Shown here: one piece after another, positions 16,162-62,545 of the stretch
Position numbering within the stretch: position 1 is the first letter of the stretch
Layout: each line of letters opens with the position of its first letter
Assembly: GCF_032878975.1 (NCBI RefSeq)
Contig: NZ_CP043875.1
Span: 1,542,370-1,606,369, forward strand
Length of the DNA stretch: 64,000 nucleotides
Reading direction: 5' to 3'
DNA from: Methanoplanus sp. FWC-SCC4
GTDB lineage: Archaea; Halobacteriota; Methanomicrobia; Methanomicrobiales; Methanomicrobiaceae
The notes under the pieces: model-generated
What the model saw: the letters and a program-made list of their open reading frames with translations, nothing else
The model's database searches: none
What the model was told of the DNA's origin: nothing
Made by a program: the position numbers and the translations under genes

Positions 16162-16236
16162 GCTGATATAGTGTAGCTCGGCCAATCATGCAGGACTCTC
16201 ACTCCTGTGACTGGGGTTCAAATCCCCATATCAGCA
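16162..16236 (+). tRNA. tRNA-Glu (CTC anticodon)
   Basis: A complete cloverleaf can be drawn. The acceptor stem GCTGATA pairs with TATCAGC (16229-16235) and the discriminator base is A at 16236. The D arm contains the GTGTAGCTCGGCCAATCAT pattern typical of archaeal tRNA-Glu. The anticodon stem CAGGA/TCCTG encloses the loop CTCTCAC, giving anticodon CTC. The T arm is TGGGG-TTCAAAT-CCCCA. CCA is not encoded. It lies alone between two chemoreceptor operons. Confidence 0.95.
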
Positions 16237-55298: not shown

Positions 55299-55880
55299 TA
55301 CTTTTTTTTATTACTAATTCTGTTTAATTCAGGAAATCTCCCTGTCCGAAAGCATGATCTTGATTAATCAGATGTTTTCTATACCGGCAGTAAAATTTTC
55401 AAAAAAGCAGTTCGATCTTCTAAGTTTTTGTTACGGGGAAATAGATGTCGCGACATTATTGTTTCTGCCAATAAGAGGCCTTTGCTGTTTGCAATTGCAG
55501 GAAAAATGTGCGCAACAAGAATGCCACAATATATAAAATAAATACAATAAAAAAAATCAGGCCCTGTTTTAATTTAATTTATATCATATAATTATCAATC
55601 TATATCATATTGACATATAAACAAATTTGGCAATATAAAGTAAAAAATAGTTCATTTTAGCCTTTTTTGACAAAATTTAATTTTCATATTTTTTAAATAA
55701 TAATATTAAAAGACTATTAATTTAAAGAGCTCAAAAGATAGATTAAATTTTCAAATAAGATTATATCTTGATCTCATAATTCTATGATAATCATTGTTTT
55801 TTACATATATATTATTTGATTGATTTTTGTTTGATAATTGAATAACTTTTTATCTTTTTGATGAACTATTCTTTTGATAA
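55299..55880. other. Intergenic region, no gene seen
   Basis: Positions 55299-55540 have moderate G+C and an open frame of 60 codons (55354-55536) without protein-like character. From 55540 on the DNA is extremely AT-rich. No tRNA or EF-1alpha start is seen. Confidence 0.4.
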
Positions 55881-56036
55881 TTTTTTATAAATATCAAAAA
55901 CCCTCACGGAAACAACGTGCTGAAATATCCAAAATAGATTAATAAAAAAATGGACATTGAAGGTCTTACCCGCATCCCGATACCAGGGTGCCCACGGGAA
56001 GTTGCTATGAAACCGGACCAAAAATCCGGTTTTTTA
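55881..56036 (+). ncRNA. Candidate structured leader RNA with terminator (riboswitch/attenuator or sRNA)
   Basis: A TATA box (TTTTTATAAATATC, 55881-55894) implies transcription from about 55915. The RNA contains a hairpin CACG...CGTG. A GC-rich segment then follows (55964-56010), where CCCG...CGGG encloses CATCCC/GGGTG. It ends in a strong terminator: AACCGGA (56011-56017) pairs with TCCGGTT (56025-56031), then a T run. ATG of the decarboxylase lies 50 bases further with its own GGAGG. This is the layout of a transcription-attenuating leader or a short independent RNA. No known riboswitch consensus was recognised. Confidence 0.55.
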
Positions 56037-56085
56037 TTAACCAGCTTTAGCAATATGCGGCAGAAGGCAGGAGGAAAGAAAAGAT

Positions 56086-57273
56086 ATGAAAACCGAAGGT
56101 AACAGCATCGTAGTACACCACATCGATGCTAAAAGAAAAGAATTGCTTCAGAATCTCGCAAAAGAACACGGGACACCGATTTTTGTTGTCGATCACGAGC
56201 AGATTAGAAAAAATTACAGGCAATTTAAGAAACACCTGCCAAATGTCCAGGTATATTATGCAGTTAAGGCTAATTCAAACCCTGATATTATAAAGACACT
56301 TTATGATATAGGATGCAGTTTTGATGTGGCATCAATGCCGGAGTTTATGCTTGTTTATGAAAACATCAAACATCTGCCGGAGAGCGAACAGCTTGACTGG
56401 ATTTACAATAAAATAATCTATGCAAACACAATCAAACCCAAAGAGACCCTTCAGGCCCTTGATCACTATCAGCCTCTTGTAACATTTGACAACATTGAAG
56501 AGCTTAAAAAAATTAAGAAATTCGGACCAAATGCAGGGCTTGTTTTGAGAATAAGGGTGCCAAATACCGGCTCAATGGTTGAGTTGTCCTCAAAGTTTGG
56601 AGCAGAGTCAGGCGATGCGGTTGATCTGATTGAGGAAGCAGTTAACATGGGACTTACAGTTGAAGGTCTAAGTTTTCATGTCGGCAGCCAGTGTACCAAT
56701 TTTGAAAATTACATTCAGGCACTTGAACTATCAGCAAATATTCTTAAAGAAGCCTGGACCCGTACAGGAGAGAAAATCAAACTCCTTGATATCGGCGGAG
56801 GTTTTCCTGTCAAATATCATCCGGGGGTTAAATCAATCAGGACACTTGCTAAAAAGATAAACAAAGAAATTGAGCGTTTATTGCCGCCTGACATTCAGAT
56901 TATGGCAGAACCGGGAAGATTCCTTGTGGCTAACTCCTGCACCCTTGTTTCAAAGGTTATAGGGAAGGCATTTCGTGACGGTAAACCGGGCTATTACATA
57001 AATGATGGTGTATATCACACATATTCCGGTCAGGTTTTCGACCACTGCACGTACCCTGTTCTTTCCTTTAAGGAAGGGGAAACACAGATATCTGCTGTAT
57101 TCGGCCCCACATGTGATGCATTTGACACAATCACACTCTCTGCCGAGCTTCCCGAGCTTGAGATTGACGATCTTGTGTATTCAGAGAATATCGGAGCATA
57201 TTCACATGCTTCATCGACATACTTTAACGGATTCCCCCCGGCTAAGGTTGTTCATATAAATAAACAGGTATAG
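56086..57273 (+). CDS. PLP-dependent ornithine/lysine-type decarboxylase (fold III)
   Basis: 395 residues. Alanine-racemase-fold (type III) decarboxylase: VYYAVKANSNPDIIKTL (PLP Lys ~64), GLSFHVGSQC, LLDIGGGFP, EPGRFLV, and VFGPTCDAFDTI, the last typical of ornithine or lysine decarboxylases. It makes a diamine such as putrescine or cadaverine for polyamines; diaminopimelate decarboxylase is the main alternative, made less likely by FGPTCDAFD. GGAGG lies ~10 bases before ATG 56086. The leader RNA candidate upstream may regulate it. Confidence 0.85.
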   Translation: MKTEGNSIVVHHIDAKRKELLQNLAKEHGTPIFVVDHEQIRKNYRQFKKHLPNVQVYYAVKANSNPDIIKTLYDIGCSFDVASMPEFMLVYENIKHLPESEQLDWIYNKIIYANTIKPKETLQALDHYQPLVTFDNIEELKKIKKFGPNAGLVLRIRVPNTGSMVELSSKFGAESGDAVDLIEEAVNMGLTVEGLSFHVGSQCTNFENYIQALELSANILKEAWTRTGEKIKLLDIGGGFPVKYHPGVKSIRTLAKKINKEIERLLPPDIQIMAEPGRFLVANSCTLVSKVIGKAFRDGKPGYYINDGVYHTYSGQVFDHCTYPVLSFKEGETQISAVFGPTCDAFDTITLSAELPELEIDDLVYSENIGAYSHASSTYFNGFPPAKVVHINKQV

Positions 57274-57514: not shown

Positions 57515-57545
57515 TTTTCAATTTATGCACTAGCAGAGGTGTGAC
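57515..57545 (-). repeat. Degenerate terminal CRISPR repeat
   Basis: TTTCAAT at 57516-57522 and GGTGTGAC at 57538-57545 match the two ends of the array repeat, with a diverged middle and one base missing. It is separated from the first perfect repeat (57580) by exactly 34 bases, the normal spacer length. It therefore looks like the oldest, decayed repeat at the trailer end, adding a 40th spacer (57546-57579). Confidence 0.75.
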
Positions 57546-57579
57546 TCAGTTTTTTGTTGGAGAGTCAGTCACCTCCAAA

Positions 57580-60200
57580 ATTTCAATCCACACACCCGTG
57601 AAGGGTGTGACGTCAGGACGCTATTAAATATCTTAAATGGGCAGCATTTCAATCCACACACCCGTGAAGGGTGTGACTATGAGATATTCAACGCTGACCG
57701 GGTGATCGGAATTTCAATCCACACACCCGTGAAGGGTGTGACCGCCGCGTGTTGTGTCTCCTCAGTATTGTGATTATCTTATTTCAATCCACACACCCGT
57801 GAAGGGTGTGACGAGGATATGTCCTGCGTGATGACATCTCTATTGAATTTCAATCCACACACCCGTGAAGGGTGTGACCGGAGTGATGAGGAGATAGATG
57901 ACATTTTGACTATTTCAATCCACACACCCGTGAAGGGTGTGACCTAGACGAAACCATTGCAGCGCTTGGCGTAATGATTTCAATCCACACACCCGTGAAG
58001 GGTGTGACCCTTCCATTCATACGGCTGTTTAGTGTTAGGGTATTTCAATCCACACACCCGTGAAGGGTGTGACAAATATATTGAGAACACAAATACAGAT
58101 ACTTCTGATTTCAATCCACACACCCGTGAAGGGTGTGACATGCCCGCACTTCTCAGGCTCACTTGACGGTATAGATTTCAATCCACACACCCGTGAAGGG
58201 TGTGACTCAGATGAAGAAATGGAAAATGCGAAAGAAATCAATATTTCAATCCACACACCCGTGAAGGGTGTGACATTTATAGTGCTCTCTATATTGCATG
58301 AGTGCACCAATTTCAATCCACACACCCGTGAAGGGTGTGACACATGAGAAAAAAGACAAAACTATAATGAGAAAAATTTCAATCCACACACCCGTGAAGG
58401 GTGTGACTCTCCTTTTCCATTGACAAAAACGCTGCCGTCCGATTTCAATCCACACACCCGTGAAGGGTGTGACATATGATAGTTGGCGTGTTACCATACA
58501 GGACGGTAATTTCAATCCACACACCCGTGAAGGGTGTGACCTGATAAAAAACAAAGAACGTGTAAAATATGCGGATTTCAATCCACACACCCGTGAAGGG
58601 TGTGACAAGATAAAGCCGCGGAACAGGAAAAAACTCCATCGATTTCAATCCACACACCCGTGAAGGGTGTGACTTTGATTTTACGCGGGATATGGTCGCG
58701 GGTAAAATTTCAATCCACACACCCGTGAAGGGTGTGACTTCATCGATAATTATGTTTGTAGCCATAAATTTTATTTCAATCCACACACCCGTGAAGGGTG
58801 TGACACGGCTATATATATGCAACAAAAGAATTAATTATTATTTCAATCCACACACCCGTGAAGGGTGTGACCAGCACTTGTTATTGCCCCCCTTCCGCCG
58901 AGATTATTTCAATCCACACACCCGTGAAGGGTGTGACCTACAGGCTTTTTATACGATAAAACATTTACATCATTTCAATCCACACACCCGTGAAGGGTGT
59001 GACAAGCATCGAAAGCAACAGGAAGCAGGAACGCAATAAATTTCAATCCACACACCCGTGAAGGGTGTGACCATCTAATGATACCATACATCCGGTGTGC
59101 TGGATATTTCAATCCACACACCCGTGAAGGGTGTGACGAGCGCTTTAGCTCCTTACGCTTAATTTCCATTTTAATTTCAATCCACACACCCGTGAAGGGT
59201 GTGACATTTTAGAAAATATTTTTAACGGGATTCTAATTATTTCAATCCACACACCCGTGAAGGGTGTGACTTAATTTTCCCTGCCATTCGCTGTAAAATA
59301 CGCCGTATTTCAATCCACACACCCGTGAAGGGTGTGACGCCGGCATGTCGGCATCTGATGCCAAGGTGCATAAATTTCAATCCACACACCCGTGAAGGGT
59401 GTGACGAAGTTCTGGCCGCCATAAATGACGAACAGTTTAAATTTCAATCCACACACCCGTGAAGGGTGTGACATCTTTTAATTTTTGCGAATCATCAACA
59501 AATTTTGATTTCAATCCACACACCCGTGAAGGGTGTGACCTGCCTGTGCCTGGCCGTTTCTCCTGAGCGTCTGATTTCAATCCACACACCCGTGAAGGGT
59601 GTGACTATGTTATCTGGACAAAACAATAAAATTACCAAAAATTTCAATCCACACACCCGTGAAGGGTGTGACTATATGAAAATGTTTTTTATTACAACAT
59701 TTCTTGATTTCAATCCACACACCCGTGAAGGGTGTGACCAAAGGCGCGGGACTTAAGATCCCGTTTCGTAGATTTCAATCCACACACCCGTGAAGGGTGT
59801 GACGATTATGAAAACAACTTACCTATAGACAACAAAATTTCAATCCACACACCCGTGAAGGGTGTGACTAGGCGCTCCAAACGTATTTGTCCAAATAACC
59901 GATATTTCAATCCACACACCCGTGAAGGGTGTGACAAAACAAATATGTACCCTACGAAGGCGACCGAAGATTTCAATCCACACACCCGTGAAGGGTGTGA
60001 CTGCATTCTTCTATCCAACTGATGCATTTATCCGTATTTCAATCCACACACCCGTGAAGGGTGTGACAGGTAGATCTACTAATGCCTTAAATGATTTTTC
60101 GTATTTCAATCCACACACCCGTGAAGGGTGTGACGGGTTCTATTTCAAAATCTTCAATTATATAGTTTATTTCAATCCACACACCCGTGAAGGGTGTGAC
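57580..60200 (-). CRISPR. Type I-C CRISPR array: 40 identical 32-nt repeats, 39 spacers (plus one before the degenerate repeat)
   Basis: Repeats of 32 nt begin ATTTCAATCC and end GGGTGTGAC; their ACACACCC...GGGTGTG arms make the stem. Repeats start at 57580, 57646, 57711, 57781 and so on to 60169. I counted 40, all identical as read, with spacers of 33-38 nt, mostly 33-36. The reverse complement ends GTGGATTGAAAT, the type I-C hallmark, so the pre-crRNA is read on the minus strand, from a leader at 60201 and up. The cas genes have the same direction. Newest spacers should be near 60200. Long open frames inside the array are artefacts of the repeat. Confidence 0.98.
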
Positions 60201-60519
60201 TCTAAACTAATCAGTTCAATAACATAATCTCCTGAAACAGGAGAACATGGATGAAAATGATTACATCATCTAATATAAACAGCCATTATAATATTTCTTT
60301 CTAAAACAAAACGGCATAAAAATACATCTGCCGCACTATATAATAAATATAGAATTAATAAAAATGGTTATTTAAAAAATATTTTTACTTTTTTTTACTT
60401 TTAATATCACAGAAATCACCTGCAAAACACCTGGAAAAATGGAAAGATTATTATACTGATCTTTAATTTTCTCCGCGAACCTCCCCGGAAAAACATGTGA
60501 GCTTAGGGTTCGCAAAAAA
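60201..60519 (-). promoter_or_regulatory. CRISPR leader
   Basis: AT-rich region between cas2 and the array. On the minus strand a TATA box GTTTATATTA lies at 60271-60280, so transcription would begin near 60245. A perfect hairpin TCTCCTG-AAA-CAGGAGA sits at 60228-60244, 27 bases before the first repeat. Such elements near the leader-repeat junction often guide spacer insertion; that role is inferred here. Confidence 0.7.
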
Positions 60520-60810
60520 TCATGTAATCAAAATACCCTCAGGATCATAACCCTCCTTTGCACCAAAATGCTCGACCCTGTTCTTCCAGTTCTTGCCAAG
60601 ATAATAAAACCTCAGACTGTCCTTCTCCTCATCAATTATACCGCAAAGGGAGTGTTTAAGCTTTGCAAACTGGGCAGGATCCAAAAGGCATTCAAAAACG
60701 GAATTCTGAACCCTCTGACCATAGTTCACACACTCCTTTGCAACCTTACGAAGTCTCCTCTTACCGCCCTCAGACTCAGTACTTACATCATATGTAACCA
60801 GAACCATCAT
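60520..60810 (-). CDS. cas2: CRISPR-associated Cas2
   Basis: 96 residues: VLVTYDVSTESEGGKRRLRKVAKECVNYGQRVQNSVFEC, the Cas2 ferredoxin-like start with its conserved Asp. Together with Cas1 it forms the spacer integration complex. GAGGT lies 8 bases before ATG 60810. It is the last cas gene, next to the leader. Confidence 0.97.
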   Translation of the reverse strand: MMVLVTYDVSTESEGGKRRLRKVAKECVNYGQRVQNSVFECLLDPAQFAKLKHSLCGIIDEEKDSLRFYYLGKNWKNRVEHFGAKEGYDPEGILIT

Positions 60811-60820
60811 AATAAAAACC

Positions 60821-61852
60821 TCAGTTCATGAAAAATGGCGGATAACCGTCAATATCCCCACGCAAAAAACGGGCCATCAGCATCGCCTGAACATAAGGAA
60901 CAAGACCGACAGAGATCTTCTCCTTTAAATACGGATGGACAATTTTATCCTGCTTCCTCTTCTGCCATGCACCAAGAACCTCCTTTTTCCCGTCATCTGT
61001 CATAATAACGCCGCCGTTCTCCTTCTTTAGAAAATCATTACCGCTAATCTGCCTCAGATTTACCATACTTAAAGCAAGCCTGTCAGCCAGAAACGGCCTT
61101 AACTCCTCCATCATATCAAGTGCAAGACTCGCCCTTCCAGGCCTGTCGGTATGGAAAAACCCGACATAAGGATCAAGGCCCACACTCTCAAGAGCAGACT
61201 CAACATCATGTGCAAGAAGAGTATACAAAAAAGAAAGCAGAGCATTCATATTATCCAGAGGAGGTCTCCTGTTGCGTTCACTGATAAAAAAATCATCCTT
61301 CTGCTTTAAAATAAGCTCATCAAGAGCTGAAAAATAAAATTTTGCACAGTTTCCCTCAATCCCCCGGAGGGCATCAGGATTGATGCAGTCATCAACCTTC
61401 AAAAGATTCCCGATAATAAGACTGTCGGCATACCTGACTTTGTCACAGTCAATAACATCACCGTGATCGCGAACGCCACGCCCAAGAACAGTCCTGCAAT
61501 TGACAACCTTGCCCTTCATAAAACACTTTGCAATATTCAGGGAATCACCAATATCATCAGCTATCCGGTACTGGGTCCGCCTCAAATGTACATTCCCCTT
61601 AACCTTCCCACTGACTCTTGCCTGAAACCTGCCGGACGGAGACAAAAAAGACAGCCCGACATTATTATCAGTACAAAGCCGCATCAGCTGCGGACTTGCA
61701 CCCATATACCCAAAACAGACAATCCCCTCAAGATTATGAACAGGAATCCTGAACCTGTCCTCACCATCAACCCTTACAACCACGTTTTCCCCGTCCTTTA
61801 AAAGATAAGACTCAGGTGTGGTCACATAAAGCGTATTCAGTAGTTTCCTCAT
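60821..61852 (-). CDS. cas1: CRISPR-associated Cas1 integrase (type I-C)
   Basis: 343 residues. Metal-site residues are in place: Glu in RGIEGNCAKFYF (~166-177), His in VGFFHTDRPGRASLALD and Glu in the following MMEELRPFLADR. N-terminal beta domain, C-terminal helical catalytic domain. Integrates new spacers at the leader end. AGGGGT before ATG 61852 gives the start. Ten bases separate it from cas4 and from cas2. Confidence 0.97.
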   Translation of the reverse strand: MRKLLNTLYVTTPESYLLKDGENVVVRVDGEDRFRIPVHNLEGIVCFGYMGASPQLMRLCTDNNVGLSFLSPSGRFQARVSGKVKGNVHLRRTQYRIADDIGDSLNIAKCFMKGKVVNCRTVLGRGVRDHGDVIDCDKVRYADSLIIGNLLKVDDCINPDALRGIEGNCAKFYFSALDELILKQKDDFFISERNRRPPLDNMNALLSFLYTLLAHDVESALESVGLDPYVGFFHTDRPGRASLALDMMEELRPFLADRLALSMVNLRQISGNDFLKKENGGVIMTDDGKKEVLGAWQKRKQDKIVHPYLKEKISVGLVPYVQAMLMARFLRGDIDGYPPFFMN

Positions 61853-61861
61853 AAAAAACCC

Positions 61862-62545
61862 CTAATCACCCTTGCAGGCATCATCCACATGCCTTTTGAC
61901 ATAACCTGCAACAGATGTTTTCTTAATTGTAATTTTCGGCATGCACACATTTTCAAGAGAGCAGGCGCTGCATTTTTTTGACTTCTCCGCAGGCGGCGTA
62001 ACCCCCTTATCAAAAATCTCATGCATCTCATCTGCAAGGGATGAAACAAGACTCCAAAGGGAATCATCCAGATTCAGATGAACCCTTCTTCTGATCTCAT
62101 GATAATAGAAGTCAGCCGATTCTATCCTGACTCCGAACATCTCCTCAAGGCACATTGCCTGTGCACAAAGCTGAACCTCGTCACGCTCGTCGGTTTTTGG
62201 TTTCCCCCGCTTGTATTCAACAGGCCTCATCGTCCAGAGCCCTTCATACCCGGGGACTGAAATACCGTCCTTTGTTCGGATATACTCAACAACATCCGCA
62301 ATCCCGAAAAGGCCAAGACTATGTGATACCAGAGGAAAAGCCCTTGATATGAAAACATCACCCCTGCTCTCAAAAAAGAAGGGATCATCGACACGCTCAT
62401 GCAGGAAATGACCCTCTGTTGTCCTCAGATTATCCTCCCACTGGCGCTCAACATGAATTAAGGCCCACTGCCGTTTGCAAAAATAAAAATGCTGTATGCC
62501 TGACAACGACAAAAGCTCGTCATCGGCATAGCTTTTTCCGGTCAT
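61862..62545 (-). CDS. cas4: CRISPR-associated Cas4 exonuclease
   Basis: 227 residues. The Fe-S cluster cysteines are the early one in QHFYFCKRQWALIHVE and the C-terminal CSACSLENVC. The RecB-like nuclease motif PVEYKRGKPK is present. It trims prespacers and helps choose the PAM. ATG overlaps the cas7 stop by four bases. Confidence 0.95.
   Translation of the reverse strand: MTGKSYADDELLSLSGIQHFYFCKRQWALIHVERQWEDNLRTTEGHFLHERVDDPFFFESRGDVFISRAFPLVSHSLGLFGIADVVEYIRTKDGISVPGYEGLWTMRPVEYKRGKPKTDERDEVQLCAQAMCLEEMFGVRIESADFYYHEIRRRVHLNLDDSLWSLVSSLADEMHEIFDKGVTPPAEKSKKCSACSLENVCMPKITIKKTSVAGYVKRHVDDACKGD

Follow-up and report, generated by a model that had tools for sequence, protein, structure and literature searches.

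The window, a stretch of 64,000 nucleotides, belongs to a genome of 2.31 Mb in a single contig (G000), from the order Methanomicrobiales, and harbors a gene for a PLP-dependent ornithine/lysine-type decarboxylase of the alanine-racemase fold (395 aa; 56086..57273, + strand). Both PF02784 and PF00278 score above their cut-offs in this protein, whose closest solved relative is the lysine/ornithine decarboxylase 2plj (E 2.4e-70) and which scores far below the cut-off of the lysA equivalog. A distant homolog (29% identity) encoded elsewhere in the same genome is presumably the genuine lysA. The genome also encodes a pyruvoyl arginine decarboxylase, and a search for spermidine synthase gave nothing above cut-off in it. 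Right 3' of the decarboxylase gene lies a CRISPR array (about 57545-60230), beyond which ORFs on the minus strand (60520-62545) read like Cas2, Cas1, and Cas4.

Orthologs of the decarboxylase were surveyed in 28 genomes of the family and in other families of the order. Besides the genome studied here, only 7 of the 28 family genomes encode a close ortholog. Four of these orthologs, 84-85% identical, are preceded by a similar leader of about 200 nt and belong to two genera, one including G007 and G021 and the other G005 and G011. The three others are remoter (L016, L017, and L018; 68-70%); L016 and L018 have seemingly unrelated leaders, and L017 begins too close to the contig end to tell. The leader of the remoter G030 ortholog (L016:1250-1500) contains irregular repeats like TCCGTGA/TATCCGTTA, which are not seen in the related L018. 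Outside the family but within the order, most orthologs whose flanks were inspected follow immediately after a saccharopine-dehydrogenase-type gene and lack a comparable leader. This upstream gene, seen in L037, L033-L072, and other relatives of the order, may possibly act in forming homospermidine or carboxyspermidine; searched for by homology in the five long-leader genomes, with no positive control, it was not found. The decarboxylase gene was also encountered at 66-77% identity in records labeled Altiarchaeales, Bathyarchaeota, Thermoplasmatota, delta proteobacterium, and Phycisphaerae (L050, L053, L056, L075, L076, and L080), some of which are probably misbinned Methanomicrobiales contigs.

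Upstream of the gene in the window, a probable TATA box, TTTTTATC (55847..55854, +), is followed by a conserved promoter-proximal block, ATGAACTATTCTTTTGATAAT (55861..55881, +), which is probably the core promoter, the start-site region, or the site of a regulator. Both are conserved in the four relatives and place the presumed start of transcription near 55876-55880. A TTTTT(A/T)A element occurs at an equal distance in L004-L007, and TTTTTTATC is present in L018. In each of the five genomes, the block has a single strong match (0-2 mismatches), invariably ahead of the decarboxylase gene, besides scattered matches with 3 mismatches in G007 and G021, and a genome search for it found no regulon having this block in common. 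The first-pass annotation had picked a TATA box at about 55881; from the sequences shared with the relatives, the promoter probably lies some 35 bases further upstream and that element is probably not the promoter. Among relatives of the order, TTCAAAAACTTCTTATTCGTGCA was considered as a shared promoter and dropped, as it encodes the end of the upstream protein. Alternatively, TTTTTTATTAA (about 56028-56038) could be the TATA box of a proximal promoter leaving a leader of only about 25 nt, and such a T/A run does stand about 25 nt before the element named Z below and about 50 nt before the ATG. However, no TATA-like element is kept there in G005 and G011, whose leader is conserved over its entire length, and the distal block is itself a conserved promoter-like sequence, making a proximal promoter very improbable.

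With the distal promoter, the decarboxylase mRNA would begin with a 5' leader of about 205-210 nt (55876..56085, +), its start being deduced from the TATA box and its length being similar in the five genomes. The leader ends with a Shine-Dalgarno (SD) sequence, GGAGG (56070..56074, +), and the ATG at 56086, an arrangement downstream of the hairpin that had been correctly recognized at first reading. A GC-rich foldable segment in AT-rich DNA had also been reported, and the contrast in composition is real, with 50.7% G+C in the island at 55964-56036 against 24% in 55299-55880 and 26% in 55881-55957, but folding beyond chance is not confirmed: the fold of 55958-56040 (z -1.74) is equaled by 11 of 200 shuffles and that of 55905-56040 reaches z -1.34. 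The local fold of the window leader is unexceptional. Whole-leader fold energies are similarly ordinary in the five leaders (z -0.6 to -1.4), except in G007 (-3.0). A 50-codon ORF (ATG GAC ATT GAA..., 55950-56102, +) spans Y, the hairpin, and Z and, in a different frame, extends over the start of the decarboxylase; compared by eye, it has no visible counterpart in the relatives, and a leader peptide was set aside.

The hairpin in question (56009..56033, +), apical and terminator-like, reads GAAACCGGA-CCAAAAA-TCCGGTTTT and comprises 9 pairs including one G-U, the loop CCAAAAA, and a run of six U directly after it. The 7-bp terminator stem with a U run of the first-pass annotation is thereby present, if longer than described, but it is not conserved. 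When a terminator-like structure was defined as a hairpin with 5 or more pairs, 4 or more of them G-C, then at least 5 T in 8, all four relatives (L004-L007) were negative, and the window was mildly unusual: shuffling created this pattern 8 times in 300 trials on the intergenic region and 9 times in 1000 trials on the leader. A local hairpin is found in all five leaders, its 3' side ending 41-53 nt before the start codon, and only in G007 does its strength exceed that of shuffles at the 1% level; in a pairwise alignment, the CCGGA hairpin of the window is roughly aligned with that of G005/G011. Termination in archaea relies on U tracts of about 4-7 U, with no hairpin required (PMC8716108). The U6 of the window falls within this range and could terminate transcription, although the feature is not conserved: the relatives have no U run at the same place, and a U tract between promoter and gene, the mark of a transcription-attenuating leader if conserved, is found in the window only.

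The leaders of the window, G007, and G021 are 51-63% identical, yet all three contain GTGCTG (element X), CCGCATC (Y), and ATGCGGCA (Z), in the order X, Y, Z. In the window, X (55917..55922, +) holds a TGCTG that can pair with CGGCA of Z, the CCGCAT of Y (55970..55975, +), conserved in the three genomes, would be the 5' arm of a long-range pairing, and Z (56055..56062, +), 31 nt before the ATG, its 3' arm adjoining the ribosome-binding site. Across the three leaders, X stands 39-41 nt past the start of GATAAT, Z stands 28-35 nt before the ATG, and the Y-Z spacing varies from 71 to 85 nt. ATGCGGCA is the sole 8-mer common to these leaders, six bases of Y are the exact reverse complement of six in Z, and an independent three-way alignment matches them up unguided. 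A shared G+C-rich 6-mer inverted repeat appeared in 0 of 2000 shuffle sets, although shuffling does not model common descent. In the order-wide set, the X-Y-Z pattern occurs in 3 of 232 genomes, namely those from which it was derived, and at the decarboxylase gene in each. In G007 and G021, X reads GTG CTG TAA, a start-stop mini-ORF (L005:1319-1494, L004:2686-2880); the window has GTG CTG AAA.

X and Y would occupy the same bases of Z, so that X-Z and Y-Z are mutually exclusive and two conformations would be possible. The minimum-energy folds of G007 and G021 pair X with Z over 11-13 bases with a probability of 0.98-1.0, and once the part before Y is left out, Y-Z pairs with a probability of 0.73-0.99. 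In the window, X-Z amounts to only five pairs (against 11-13 in G021/G007) and has a probability below 0.01, and Y-Z reaches 0.2, the Y-Z fold lying 0.8 kcal/mol above the minimum. The latter fold can be extended through GTCTT (55963..55967, +), present in the window only, which could lengthen the helix via AAGGC (56064-56068), and through an inner helix in which TTGCTA (56002..56007, +) would, by complementarity, pair with TAGCAA (56048..56053, +) as its 3' arm. The SD is predicted to be accessible in G007 and G021, and its accessibility in the window leader is not unusual. The structure of the window's own leader is something that we infer rather than demonstrate.

In a search of the relatives for covariation, as proposed with the first-pass annotation, the sequences of Y and Z proved conserved in G007 and G021, but the Y-Z pairs never vary and carry no covariation. 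The only change in X-Z, from U-A to U-G in G021, keeps the pairing. Because the Y-Z pairs are invariant in the three genomes, covariation does not distinguish an RNA pairing from a DNA inverted repeat, and X, Y, and Z might be half-sites of a transcription regulator and not RNA arms, a reading that the invariant repeat fits equally well and to which the conserved block right at the promoter also lends some weight. We regard it as unlikely, however, given that Y and Z would stand some 95 and 180 nt past the presumed start with a variable spacing, and that the signal obtained in G005/G011 (see below) is specific to the fold of the sense strand.

The strongest evidence for RNA structure comes from G005 and G011, whose leaders align without gaps at 89.9% identity, compared to 72.2% immediately before the promoter and 66.2% at the third positions of codons. 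Avoidance of base pairs was measured by counting the substitutions between the two genomes that fall into pairs predicted by folding one of the two sequences alone to minimum energy. For the G005 fold, predicted pairs contain 3 of 20 substitutions where 10.7 are expected (P 2.4e-4), and in the 93-nt domain ending at the SD, 2 of 13 where 8.7 are expected (P 6.5e-5). The G011 fold gives 6/20 (P 0.005) and, within the domain, 4/13 (P 0.003), and no circular shift did as well in any of these four tests. The same test yielded no signal in four upstream windows, six coding windows, or the antisense strand of this pair, nor between genera or within G007/G021, where identity is 43-63%. In both genomes, a predicted 11-pair helix covers AGGAGG directly, and the probability of an unpaired GGAGG is 0.001-0.002, a value reached by only 1 of 200 shuffles in each of them. 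Both hallmarks of a structured translational leader, base-pair selection and a helix covering the SD, are found here, and we conclude with good confidence, from this one pair of genomes, that selection maintains the RNA structure of the G005 and G011 leader, which masks the ribosome-binding site. A model of their domain, run against the window, G007/G021, and the 28 family genomes, recognizes only itself. Since it does not recognize the window, the five leaders share a layout and not a demonstrable common structure.

A long folded mRNA leader that tunes translation probably makes up the stretch before the decarboxylase gene. More precisely, we consider it on balance somewhat probable that it is a structured, lineage-specific 5' leader of about 205 nt with a long-range helix on or beside the ribosome-binding site, acting mainly on translation initiation. 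It might instead be an ordinary untranslated leader, in which the hairpin, the U run, and the complementary pieces of the window have no regulatory role. Fold z-scores close to chance, a terminator-like hairpin that the relatives did not retain, and the lack of an Rfam match would all agree with this; against it, CCGCATC and ATGCGGCA are common to otherwise diverged leaders, and the base-pair selection in G005/G011 argues for a function at the same position. We thus see an ordinary leader as a rather unlikely, if still appreciable, alternative. Under the structured-leader reading, the folding of the leader would set the access to the ribosome-binding site and most likely set or switch the rate of translation initiation. 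The 11-pair helix of G005 and G011 would mask the SD outright, whereas the leaders of the window, G007, and G021 would have the Z element just upstream of the SD captured by either Y or X. Only in the window, a hairpin leading into six U might add a partial termination of transcription. In this scheme, the sequences show conservation between the window and G007/G021 and base-pair selection in G005/G011, and we infer the start site, the folding in the cell, and the switch with its direction.

The first-pass annotation had suggested a transcription-attenuating riboswitch of no known class. The regulatory leader in this proposal gains credit from the pair avoidance in G005/G011 and the location of Y and Z beside the ribosome-binding site, but the transcriptional attenuation loses it, as the terminator is not in the relatives. 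That no known class applies is borne out by Rfam 15, which, with membership defined as a score at or above the gathering threshold of the family, detected only a tRNA at 16162 in the window and nothing in the four relatives; a permissive search of the local stretch returned matches at chance level only, leaving no credible match in the leader of the window or of the relatives. A new class would be expected to exhibit a conserved aptamer core with a covarying structure in several loci or species; these leaders do not, with Y-Z invariant, and the G005/G011 domain model found neither a shared aptamer core nor a second locus in the 28 family genomes. A true metabolite-sensing riboswitch controlling transcription termination, with a polyamine, ornithine, or lysine as ligand, would accord with a gene of polyamine metabolism, with alternative folds that are nearly isoenergetic, and with a hairpin whose U6 is inside the 4-7 U of archaeal terminators. 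On the other hand, such terminators need no hairpin (PMC8716108), the relatives are without the U run, and the aptamer core, second locus, and Rfam class are all missing, so that we hold this possibility to be quite improbable. In general terms, a metabolite riboswitch is possible but unsupported, and a structured translational leader is better supported. More speculatively, and with a small probability in our eyes, the leaders could represent an undescribed RNA switch of Methanomicrobiales, in which exclusive pairings at the ribosome-binding site sense a polyamine or its precursor and control polyamine synthesis through lineage-specific platforms. If true, these platforms would be SD masking in one genus and an X-Z/Y-Z alternation or U-tract termination in others.

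In archaea, hardly any natural cis-acting RNA switches have been described; a 2021 paper counts a single natural riboswitch as experimentally determined, the fluoride riboswitch of Thermococcus kodakarensis (PMC8241225). A leader selected for its base pairs ahead of a polyamine-type enzyme offers a specific case for RNA-level translational control in methanogens, for the testing of which G005 and G011 are a better place than the window. Bacterial SD-sequestering leaders and riboswitch expression platforms are alike in their long-range helix beside or over the SD and in their mutually exclusive pairings, the SD being fully paired in G005/G011. Unlike them, the present leaders have no recognizable aptamer or trigger, are found at one gene only per genome in five archaeal genomes, and are predicted to mask the SD in one genus only. 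Another comparison is offered by the bacterial speF gene of Salmonella, whose decarboxylase has a different fold. Its leader is described as also taking alternative conformations ahead of an ornithine decarboxylase gene, in a system subject to several layers of control (PMC6386406), whereas no conserved leader peptide was seen in the archaeal leaders. Finally, the leader of the window matches neither the fluoride nor any other Rfam family and has another gene context, but the fluoride riboswitch of T. kodakarensis is likewise an archaeal leader thought to act on translation (PMC8241225).
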